Source: Desulfovibrio sp. (GTDB lineage: Bacteria; Desulfobacterota; Desulfovibrionia; Desulfovibrionales; Desulfovibrionaceae). Taken from it: a DNA stretch of 22,609 nt. Of the stretch, positions 6,938 to 10,351 are shown one piece after another (position 1 is the stretch's first letter; each line of letters begins with the position of its first letter). Under the pieces are notes generated by a model. The model searched no databases. It saw only the letters and a program-made list of their open reading frames with translations, and was not told where the DNA came from. A program made the translations under genes and the position numbers. The stretch is taken from assembly GCA_028708195.1 (NCBI GenBank), contig JAQVZK010000002.1:1-22609 (forward strand), read 5' to 3'.

Positions 6938-8200
6938 TCAGAATATCTGTCTGCCTCCCATCCAGTGGTGCTTGACGCGCCCGCGCAAGGTCTGCCCCAA
7001 GAAGGGCGTGTTCAGACTTTTTGAGTACATGGTTTCCCGTGATGGCACCCATGCTTCTTCCGGGTTAAACAAAAAGAAATCTGCCGGGTCGCCGGGGGCG
7101 AATCCGTTCCAGGGCAAAGCAAATATCTCCGCCGGGCGGCGGCACCACAGGCGGTGCGCGTCCGCTTCGGTCAAAAGCCCTGCATCCACAAGCTTCCAGG
7201 TGAGGCTGAGGGCCAGGTCAAGCCCTGTAAAGCCGCACGGCGCTTCATCAAGGGTGCCGTCTTTTTCGTGCGCGGCATGCGGGGCATGGTCCGTCACAAG
7301 AATATCCACAATACCCGTTTTCACGGCTTCACGCAGCGCCTCACGGTCACGCGCAGTGCGCAGGGGCGGGCTCACCTTGGTTTGGGTACTATAGTTTCCA
7401 AGAGCTGTTTCGTCCAGCAGTAGATAGTGGGGGCATGTCTCTGCACTTACCTTTACGCCGCGCTCCTTGGCCCAGCGTATGATGTCCACAGTCAACGCCG
7501 CAGATACATGCGCTATATGTACTGGAATATCAAGATATTCCGCAAGCATGATATCGCGTGCCGCCTGCACGGCCTCCCCGGCGGGGGGCTGCCCTTTAAG
7601 GCCCAAAAGCCCGCTGACGCGGCCTTCGTGCATGATCCAGCCACGTCCCAGGTGCGGGTCTTCGCAGTGGTCAATAAGAATCAGGCCAAGATCGGCCCCA
7701 TATTCCATGATACGGCGCACAAGCTCGGCATTTTCAAGGGGGCGTCCGTCGTTGGACACGGCCACGCAGCCCGCCTCCTTGAGTTCGGCCAGAGGGGCCA
7801 TCATTTCGCCCTTGAGGCCGATGGTGGCCGCCGCTATGGGCAGAAGGCGCGGGCCGTACGGGTGGCTTTGCCGCGCCCTGTCGAGCATATGCCGGGTAAC
7901 GCTGGCGGTATCGTTGACGGGCTTGGTGTTGGCCATGCACATGACCGCGCCAAAACCGCCGCGTACCGCCGCCTCAAGCCCTGAAGCCACGTCTTCTTTG
8001 TATTCAAAACCGGGTTCGCGCAGGTGTACGTGAGCATCAATGAGGCTTGGCATGAGCACAAGGCCACCAGCATCAAAAATTTCACACCCTTCGGGAGCCT
8101 CGTGATGGCCAGCCGGGGTCATTGTCATGATTTTGTCGCCGTCCACCAGAAGATCCACAGGAGCTTCAAGGTGGCGGGCATTTTTGATGCAAAGCCTCAT
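6938..8200 (-). CDS. pyrC: Dihydroorotase
   Basis: 420 aa, type-I dihydroorotase of the amidohydrolase superfamily. It catalyses the reversible cyclisation of carbamoyl aspartate to dihydroorotate, the third step of pyrimidine synthesis. The metal site looks complete: His57 and His59 in [10 protein letters not shown], Asp151 in SNDGRP, His178 in IDHCED, His231 in HIAHVS, Asp304 in TDHAPH. It is therefore probably catalytic, unlike the inactive PyrC' partners of some pseudomonad ATCases. Its ATG overlaps the pyrB stop as ATGA, so the two are translationally coupled and may form the class-A ATCase-dihydroorotase complex. Confidence 0.95.
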
Positions 8201-9153
8201 GCGCGTCCTCCGTCGTTGCGCGTAGCCAAAAGATAGAGCACGGCCATGCGCGTCGCCACACCCGCCGCCACCTGGTTCAGCACCAGACTGGCAGAAGCGT
8301 CGGCCATGTCATCAGAAATTTCGAGTCCACGGTTCATTGGGCCGGGATGCAGTACCTTGGCCCCGGGCCGGGCCAGTTCCATATGCCCAAGGCCCAGACA
8401 GAAACGCCGCGAGTATTCGGCCAGGTCCGGCAAAAGCCCGGCCTGCTGGCGTTCCAATTGCAGGCGCAGGCACATGGCGGCGTCCACATCGCGCATGGCC
8501 TTCTCAAGATTTGTATACACTTCCACAGGCCAGTGGTCCACCCCCGCAGGCAGCAGCGTACGCGGAGCGCAAACCCGCACGCGCACGCCAAGGCTGGTCA
8601 GCAGGTGAATATTGGACCGCGCCACCCGGCTGTGCGCAATGTCGCCAAGAATAAGCAGGGTACGGCCTTCAAAGATATTGTCCCAGGCCTGACGCAGGCT
8701 GAAGCAGTCAAGCAGGGCCTGGGTTGGGTGGGCATGCCAGCCGTCGCCACCATTCACCACGCCGCTGGGCATCAGGTCCGCTATATAACGGGCCGCACCA
8801 CTGCTGGAATGGCGGATGACAATCACATCCGGCGACATGGCCTGCAACGTCAGAGCCGTGTCCTTGAGGCTTTCGCCCTTGTTGAGGCTTGAGCCGCTTT
8901 TGCCCAGGGCAAAGGTATCTGCCGAAAGACGCTTGCCCGCCACATCAAAGGACGTCTTGGTGCGGGTGCTGTCTTCCACAAAAAAGAGCACCACGGTCTT
9001 GCCCTTGAGCGTGGGCACCTTCTTGACGGGACGGGTGTTAATTTCTTGAAAGCTGGCTGCCAGATCCAGAAGGTGCAGGGTGTCGTGCCTGCTCAACTGG
9101 GTCACGTCCAGGAGGTCTTTGTGTGGCCAGTGGTAACGATTTTCGGTATTCAT
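8197..9153 (-). CDS. pyrB: Aspartate carbamoyltransferase catalytic chain
   Basis: 318 aa. It joins carbamoyl phosphate and aspartate, the committed step of pyrimidine synthesis. The carbamoyl-phosphate loop [10 protein letters not shown] has STRT at 62-65. [12 protein letters not shown] supplies the mobile Lys loop. HPTQALLD and HPGPMNRG are further signatures. The ENSTRT-like loop and linkage to pyrC resemble the class found in pseudomonads, which uses PyrC rather than PyrI as partner; no pyrI is seen. There is no convincing SD before ATG 9153 (ACACCGCAACGCC). The ATG instead overlaps the TGA of an upstream small ORF by 4 nt, so translation is probably coupled to it. Expression is likely set by the attenuator in the leader. 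Confidence 0.95.
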
Positions 9154-9323
9154 GGCGTTGCGGTGTAAAAGGTAAAAAAAAGCCCCGCTGATTTTTCAAC
9201 GGGGAACGGCGGGAGCGCCTGCGGCCCTGACCCGGAACAATTTGAACTAAAAAAAACCGGGCATCCAAGGCGCCGATAGGGGCGCCCCCTGAATTTGCAG
9301 AGTATGGGAGCGGCAGACATCAT
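9150..9323 (-). CDS. Candidate pyrB leader peptide (PyrL-like)
   Basis: A 57-codon ORF from ATG 9323 (a second ATG lies at 9320, and an in-frame TTG at 9362 would give 70 codons). It ends TGA exactly overlapping the pyrB ATG (ATGA). It runs through both U8 tracts, encoding VFFSS and GLFFTFY. This is the same logic as the 44-aa leader of E. coli pyrBI, in which a ribosome following RNA polymerase through a U-rich pause stops the attenuator from folding. The SD is weak (GGG before the second ATG), and the candidate promoter puts the transcript start very near the ATG. The product has no family match; its existence as a translated ORF is inferred from position. Confidence 0.45.
9174..9204 (-). 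terminator. Attenuator terminator in the pyrB leader
   Basis: Minus-strand hairpin with a 9-bp stem (9196-9204 with 9183-9191, one G-U pair) and a 4-nt loop (9192-9195). It is followed by C and then eight Ts (9181-9174), ending 20 nt before the pyrB ATG. No minus-strand gene lies upstream of pyrB for it to terminate, so it most likely acts as a conditional terminator of the pyr operon. Confidence 0.7.
9249..9286 (-). promoter_or_regulatory. Pause-like hairpin plus U8 tract in the pyrB leader
   Basis: On minus, GGCGCC-CCTATC-GGCGCC (9286-9269) is followed after 12 nt by eight Ts (9256-9249). Its position is 45 nt ahead of the attenuator hairpin. A hairpin some 11 nt before a U-rich stretch is the geometry of a hairpin-stabilised pause, and low UTP would prolong the pause. 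Its role is inferred by analogy with pyrBI. Confidence 0.45.
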
Positions 9324-9329
9324 ACCCAG

Positions 9330-9358
9330 TTTGTAGGCGCGCAAAGGGGCTTTGTAAA
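9330..9358 (-). promoter_or_regulatory. Candidate promoter of the pyr operon
   Basis: On minus, TTTACA (9353-9358, five of six -35 matches) is spaced by 17 nt from TACAAA (9330-9335, four of six). The predicted start lies around 9323, which would make the leader ORF nearly leaderless. A promoter further upstream is possible. Confidence 0.35.
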
Positions 9359-9553
9359 GCAAAAAGTCTGTTGACGCGTGCAGGGCCTTTGTCTAGTTAG
9401 AGGAGGGCTGTTCCGTCTGCGGGACGGCGCAGGCCCATACGGTTGCCAGACGGGGCGCGGGGCATCCGGCTGCAGGCTTGAGCGCGGCTGCCCCCAGGGC
9501 GCGATTCATTGTATCAGTATTTCCACCAGGCTCTCTTTTGGAGGATGTGACCA

Positions 9554-10351
9554 ATGCTTTTGTCTCTTGTGATCTATCTTGCATGTGGCGCTGTGGCCGG
9601 TGTGCTGGCCGGGCTGCTGGGCGTGGGCGGCGGCATAGTGCTTGTGCCAATGATGGTGGCCATATTTCCCACTGTTGGCGTGCCTGCGCAATACGTGCAG
9701 CAAATGGCTCTGGCAACGTCGCTCGCCAGCATCATGATTACCTCCATTTCCAGCGCCCGCGCGCACAACAAGCGCGGTGCCGTGCACTGGGACATCTTCC
9801 GCAATATTACACCGGGCATCCTTATTGGTACGTTTGTGGGCGGCCTTATCGCCACGCACATGCCAACACTTGCCCTCAAGATTATCTTCATCTGCTTTCT
9901 GCTGGTGGTATCTGCCCAGATGCTTTCAGGCTACCGGCCCCCGGCCACCCGTAACATGCCGGGCTTTGCCGGCACCTCGGGCGTTGGCATGGGCATAGGC
10001 CTTATTTCAAGCTTTGTGGGCATTGGCGGCGGCACCCTTTCTGTGCCCTTCATGTCTTCCTGCAACGTACCGCTGCACCATGCCGTGGGCACCTCGGCCG
10101 CCATTGGCTTTCCCATAGCTGTGGCAGGAACCCTTGGCTTTGTGGTGGGTGGCTGGGGCCGACCGGACCTGCCCGCCATGTCCTTAGGTTTTGTGAACCT
10201 GTGGGCCTTGCTGGGCATAGCCTCGGCCAGTTTTCTCACTGCGCCCATAGGCGTAAAACTGTCGCACGCCCTGCCCGCCGACAAGCTCAAACGCGGCTTT
10301 GCCTGCTTTTTGGTCATTGTGGCCGTCAAGATGGCCTGGGGATTGATGTAA
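9554..10351 (+). CDS. TauE/SafE-family (TSUP) anion permease
   Basis: 265 aa, an almost entirely hydrophobic inner-membrane protein of about 7-8 helices. The family's internal duplication is clear: GLLGVGGGIVLVPMMV near residues 20-35 and SFVGIGGGTLSVPFM near 152-166. These proteins are linked to export or uptake of sulfite, sulfoacetate, taurine-related or other small organic anions. In a sulfate reducer a sulfur oxyanion is an attractive substrate but is not shown by the sequence. GGAGG ends 9 nt before ATG 9554; an ATG directly after the SD (9545) is followed by TGA and cannot be used. First gene of an operon with the YitT protein 26 nt on. Confidence 0.88.
   Translation: MLLSLVIYLACGAVAGVLAGLLGVGGGIVLVPMMVAIFPTVGVPAQYVQQMALATSLASIMITSISSARAHNKRGAVHWDIFRNITPGILIGTFVGGLIATHMPTLALKIIFICFLLVVSAQMLSGYRPPATRNMPGFAGTSGVGMGIGLISSFVGIGGGTLSVPFMSSCNVPLHHAVGTSAAIGFPIAVAGTLGFVVGGWGRPDLPAMSLGFVNLWALLGIASASFLTAPIGVKLSHALPADKLKRGFACFLVIVAVKMAWGLM

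Follow-up and report, generated by a model that had tools for sequence, protein, structure and literature searches.

Comparative evidence for a probable ribosome-coupled attenuator with a putatively leaderless leader ORF upstream of pyrBC in Desulfovibrio

How is transcription into the pyrB gene of a Desulfovibrio species controlled, and does the control resemble that of the Escherichia coli pyrBI operon? The question is raised by a stretch of 22,609 nucleotides (the window; contig JAQVZK010000002.1), on the minus strand of which pyrB, encoding aspartate carbamoyltransferase (8197–9153; Pfam PF02729 and PF00185; ATG 9153–9151), is followed by a gene for a pyrC-like dihydroorotase (6938–8200), the start of which overlaps the pyrB stop. 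Upstream of pyrB, on the same strand, are a hairpin, GGCGCC-CCTATC-GGCGCC (9286–9269), which is a possible pause hairpin, a T8 tract (9256–9249), which is a possible UTP-dependent pause region, and an intrinsic terminator, the candidate attenuator (9204–9174). The latter comprises a stem of 9 pairs, 6 of them G-C (9204–9183), and a second T8 tract (9181–9174) separated by 20 nt from the pyrB ATG. All of these elements are present where a preliminary description of the window had placed them, as is an ORF whose TGA (9152–9150) sits inside an ATGA shared with the pyrB start; it had also noted the lack of a convincing pyrB Shine-Dalgarno sequence, and there is indeed no Shine-Dalgarno-like match 5′ of pyrB in the window. 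The terminator alone is unremarkable, with one terminator-like site in 8900–9700 compared with a shuffle mean of 1.1, and folding of the window leader is not unusually stable (z −0.81). Since the terminator and fold of this single sequence are at chance level, the case for attenuation must rest on comparison across relatives.

For this comparison pyrB was located in 75 of 79 genomes of the genus Desulfovibrio. The genus set consists of 75 unique pyrB leaders, identical upstream sequences having been removed, and thinning gave a set of 36 dissimilar leaders, from which L105, containing N, was left out. Of the 92 unique outgroup leaders, 84 belong to other genera in the same family (drawn from 128 such genomes with a pyrB match), and the remaining 8 come from different families within the order.

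The usual plan in the genus is TTTACA, 17–18 nt, TAnnnn, 6–8 nt, an ATG, a short ORF, the terminator and then pyrB. In the window, the −35 element TTTACA (9358–9353, minus strand) is followed 17 nt 3′ by the −10 element TACAAA (9335–9330) and then by an ATG at 9323–9321. The promoter-ATG part of the plan is present in 57–58 of the 75 genus leaders (58 in a search that used the ATG), including that of Desulfovibrio piger ATCC 29098 (L115). In a second choice of the −35 element, the ATG was ignored and the YTTTACA site with the T-richest preceding tract was taken in each leader. Such a site was found in 59 of the 75 leaders, and in 57 of the 59 an ATG lies 35–37 nt from it, the exceptions being L065 and L126, in which the predicted +1 has no ATG; none of the other offsets between 25 and 59 has an ATG in more than 6 of the 59. 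With this spacing, the A of the ATG falls on the expected transcription start or no more than 1–2 nt from it. The leader ATG is preceded by C or T in 57 of 58 leaders, as expected at a start site, and in the window the promoter spacing and this preceding base together predict initiation at A9323. No Shine-Dalgarno match of at least 4 precedes the leader ATG in any of the 36 dissimilar leaders, and codon 2 is AAA or AAG in 28 of 58. It appears, with the 5′ end placed by promoter geometry, that the leader ORF starts on the predicted first nucleotide of its RNA, i.e. that it is leaderless.

In the window the ORF so defined has 57 codons (9323–9150, minus strand), is predicted to lack a 5′ UTR, and has a second ATG immediately after the first. 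The preliminary description had begun it at a TTG at 9362; that start is rejected because it precedes the −35 element and should be outside the transcript, and ATG 9323, the start at the predicted first RNA nucleotide, had been missed. A T tract at 9367–9359 on the minus strand (e.g. ACTTTTTGC), directly 5′ of the −35 element and abutting it, is conserved in most genus leaders; it could serve as an UP-like element or bind a regulator.

Does the frame from this ATG behave as if it were translated? In 57 of 58 leaders it meets no stop codon until at least 6 nt inside the terminator stem; the single exception, L109, has a 5-codon ORF ending 17 nt before the stem. The frames and the encoded peptides vary between leaders. 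A one-base gap early in the ORF separates the window from its nearest relatives (L053–L056), and in group A (L002, L026–L028 and L060) indels move the frame and restore it, with no stop arising before the terminator. Frames that remain open despite indels are what selection for ribosome passage, more than for a peptide, would be predicted to leave in the sequence. The alternative is that a promoter preference for C-A starts and a stop-poor composition produced the ATG at +1 and the open frame incidentally, with the terminator acting alone and the ORF unused. It draws on the facts that A is a common start nucleotide and that composition alone opens 22.3 ± 2.7 of the 36 dissimilar leaders from ATG to stem (dinucleotide shuffles). 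The number actually open is 35, however, compared with 21 and 18 for the other two frames, and it is the complete ATG, beyond the A alone, that recurs in 57 of 59 leaders; together with the maintenance of frames through indels, these observations make the by-product explanation very improbable. At TTGACA promoters of the genus, leaderless starts are not enriched, with 18 matches at the leaderless distance and 15 at 14–16 nt. A leaderless start is accordingly not a general property of genus promoters, a point that counts against the leaderless reading, and a genus-wide habit of such initiation is rejected.

A terminator lies within 130 nt of pyrB in 67 of the 75 genus leaders compared with 7 of the 92 outgroup leaders, and its median stem energy is −13.3 kcal/mol. 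The promoter-ATG plan and the terminator occur together in 56 of the 75, and the plan occurs in none of the 92 outgroup leaders, the pattern searched for having itself been derived from the genus. Absence from the outgroup suggests that the element arose within the genus and hence, by the sequence comparison, convergently with that of E. coli.

The 17 genus leaders without the promoter-ATG plan count against the attenuation reading. Several of them, among which are L106, L107, L176, L177 and L187, keep a terminator before pyrB and have no recognised promoter of the TTTACA-ATG kind. In L106, L107, L108, L110, L111 and L112, none of which has the plan, pyrB has a GTG start and a Shine-Dalgarno-like GGAG, and several of this group keep a terminator further upstream. 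L187, likewise without the plan, has ahead of its terminator an ORF containing very T-rich stretches (TTTTTTTG, TTTCTTTG), which is what a leadered variant might look like.

What could then prevent the terminator from forming? When leaders are folded from the ATG to the T tract, the terminator's 5′ arm is paired inside its own hairpin with a probability of at least 0.9 in 30 of the 36 dissimilar leaders, and it pairs upstream at more than 0.3 in one of the 36 (L102), which has a near-repeat of the terminator inside its leader ORF; the ORF remains open through the near-repeat. No antiterminator fold is evident in the 36, and an RNA-only switch is rejected, there being no competing fold among them. 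Without an antiterminator, some other factor has to block pairing of the 5′ arm physically, the role played by the ribosome in E. coli.

A protein could in principle serve. Under a Bacillus-like scheme, PyrR would bind the leader RNA and control the terminator, and the genus does resemble Bacillus in apparently controlling pyr genes at a terminator and in having a PyrR-family gene, which scores above the curated cut-off in 35 of 41 genus genomes, that of the window included; the same model passes its cut-off in 6 of 14 control genomes. By contrast with Bacillus, no PyrR-binding RNA or antiterminator was detected in the Desulfovibrio leaders examined. Thus, the window has no Rfam match at gathering score; there is no PyrR-site match in the window leader with E up to 10, none in 20 leaders with E up to 0.5, and no PyrR site at gathering score around two pyrR genes. 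A consensus for the PyrR loop matches 4 of 58 leaders, in all four inside the terminator, and Rfam scans of the leaders gave only sub-threshold matches, to unrelated RNAs. Control by PyrR would, in addition, leave the leader ORF unexplained, and we regard it as extremely unlikely. As far as the portion consulted indicates, PMC3766115 surveyed Rfam motifs, PyrR among them, in the Desulfovibrionales, with no statement there on the occurrence of PyrR sites in that order.

The comparison therefore shows conservation of a promoter, an ATG at the predicted +1, a terminator, and an ORF open into that terminator. These features are probably best explained by a ribosome-coupled attenuator of the E. coli pyrBI type controlling pyrBC, with a leaderless leader ORF. 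In E. coli, according to passages of PMC10135430 and PMC5021804, low UTP causes the polymerase to pause on the U-requiring pyrL template, and the coupled ribosome blocks the terminator hairpin. In Desulfovibrio, RNA polymerase would start at, or no more than 1–2 nt from, A9323, giving an mRNA that opens with the leader AUG and has no 5′ UTR; a ribosome would load onto this 5′ AUG and trail the polymerase. If the polymerase lags within the pyrimidine-rich leader, for which low UTP is the simplest cause, the ribosome would catch up and shield the 5′ arm of the terminator, and transcription would continue into pyrB. With ample UTP, the polymerase would outpace the ribosome, and the hairpin would end the RNA. 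Beyond the conserved features, the position of the 5′ end, translation of the ORF, protection of the terminator by the ribosome, and UTP as the signal are the four elements that we infer.

The likeness to E. coli pyrBI/pyrL (L282) lies in the pyrB-proximal intrinsic terminator, the leader ORF that runs into it (through it in E. coli), the pyrimidine-rich leader, and an arrangement in which an antiterminator is not needed. By contrast, the ATG of pyrL in E. coli K-12 follows a 5′ UTR containing GGGAGG, where the Desulfovibrio ATG itself occupies the predicted +1; the Desulfovibrio leaders contain less U, and U runs are not general in them; and the gene after pyrB is pyrC-like, not pyrI. The Desulfovibrio leader is not a plain member of the pyrBI class, given the 5′ UTR and Shine-Dalgarno sequence that pyrL possesses.

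The nucleotide signal is the weakest link of the attenuation reading. pyrB makes a precursor of UTP, and for this reason UTP would be the expected signal. The T fraction of the genus leaders is 0.26 and the A fraction 0.16, compared with 0.18 and 0.25 at the start of pyrB; in E. coli pyrL they are 0.35 and 0.17, so that the genus leaders shift in the same direction relative to pyrB, with less T. The last 25 nt before the stem carry an excess of T (z 4.67 across 32 leaders, of which 22 are positive), and T runs of at least 5 are only mildly in excess among the dissimilar leaders (15 compared with 10.6 expected). As a rule, the sequence preceding a T run is no more stable than its shuffles (mean z −0.62, 19 segments); a strong hairpin before a T run (z of −3 or lower) is present in L006, L031, L054 and L057. 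It may be that the leader is ribosome-coupled and leaderless as proposed but responds, through the speed of ribosome loading, to the supply of initiating 70S ribosomes or to translation capacity, or else responds to CTP. T runs of at least 4 are missing from 15 of the 36 dissimilar leaders and C is the commonest leader base (0.33), both of which would suit such a signal; that the T fraction climbs to 0.45 across the 10 nt preceding the stem, and that UTP is the expected effector of a gene supplying its precursor, tell against it, and we consider it unlikely.

The counts of T runs and folds lead us to reject the U8 tract and pause hairpin as generally conserved parts. The pyrBI-like logic advanced in the preliminary description is accordingly retained for the attenuator and for a leader ORF that extends into it and is kept open, but not for the U tract and hairpin. 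Likewise the alignment of leaders that it had proposed bears out the terminator and an ORF that stays open while its peptide changes; the upstream U tract, the pause hairpin and an ORF end at the pyrB start do not recur in the expected manner.

The end of the ORF raises a further question, i.e. whether the ribosome that cancels the terminator also initiates pyrB. Of 58 leaders, 13 have the ORF stop overlapping pyrB as ATGA, and 22 have it within −7 to +8 of the pyrB start. There is no ATGA in L053–L057, the window's five nearest relatives, where the ORF stops 6 nt into the stem, 41–48 nt before pyrB. The overlap is therefore rejected as a conserved part, and the case for translational coupling of leader and pyrB through ATGA is weakened, the preliminary description having itself named absence from close relatives as counting against the idea. 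Among the 17 dissimilar leaders with an ORF reaching the pyrB start, 10 end in ATGA compared with about 5.7 expected by frame, a weak excess. A pyrB Shine-Dalgarno match of at least 4 is present in 5 of the 6 dissimilar leaders with an ORF stop at least 57 nt upstream, compared with 5 of the remaining 30, whose stop lies less than 57 nt upstream or past the pyrB start (Fisher p 0.003, with no correction for relatedness). The latter rate is near chance, 10.5% of random leader 17-mers giving a match; 5 of 10 other ORF starts in the window, chosen mechanically, have a match of at least 4. It is possible, though doubtful, that one ribosome from the 5′-terminal AUG cancels the terminator and then passes to a pyrB without its own Shine-Dalgarno sequence. 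Counting against such a hand-over, several leaders without a pyrB Shine-Dalgarno match have the stop 41–48 nt before pyrB, from where re-initiation at a distance would be needed.

A precedent for a leader RNA that begins with its ORF is available in Sinorhizobium meliloti trpL (rnTrpL, peTrpL), the leader RNA of which, in the part of PMC7298713 consulted, opens with the ATG of the leader ORF, as is predicted here from sequence. By contrast, the S. meliloti leader is, from the same part of that paper, a Trp-codon attenuator with mutually exclusive RNA structures, where the Desulfovibrio leaders have no competing structure and, on an unsystematic look, no amino-acid codon signal was noticed. Among the matches listed by a literature search, from the scope of which subscription journals were mostly excluded, there was no Desulfovibrio pyrB attenuator and no leaderless pyr leader peptide; the text of PMC2965389 has no occurrence of pyrB or Desulfovibrio. 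If the proposal is correct, ribosome-coupled attenuation of pyrB is not confined to enteric bacteria and has probably arisen by convergence; its form in Desulfovibrio would be near-minimal, a promoter and an AUG at +1 followed by a distance to the terminator stem that is only 45 nt in the shortest of the open-ORF leaders. It would also provide a natural system in which the speed of ribosome recruitment to a leaderless mRNA is set against a moving RNA polymerase, enabling one to ask whether a leaderless start is chosen for speed.

Occurrence of the promoter-ATG combination elsewhere was assessed in the 79 whole genomes with the pattern CTTTACA-N17/18-TAnnnT-N6-8-ATG, which gives 82 matches, 47 of them pyrB leaders, compared with 7 matches for a reversed control pattern; the window's own genome scores zero because its −10 element ends in A. 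The promoter-ATG pattern also begins genes for proteins of about 207–222 residues (L260, L262 and L264, with similar cases in G006, G212, G213, G220 and G222). By eye these resemble secreted relatives of each other, and two that were scanned have no Pfam match; they may represent a second leaderless gene in the genus. In G007 the pattern lies directly 5′ of a gene for a 314-residue DUF362 protein (PF04015; L273), and matches in G184, G185, G004 and G224 look, by eye, like the same case.
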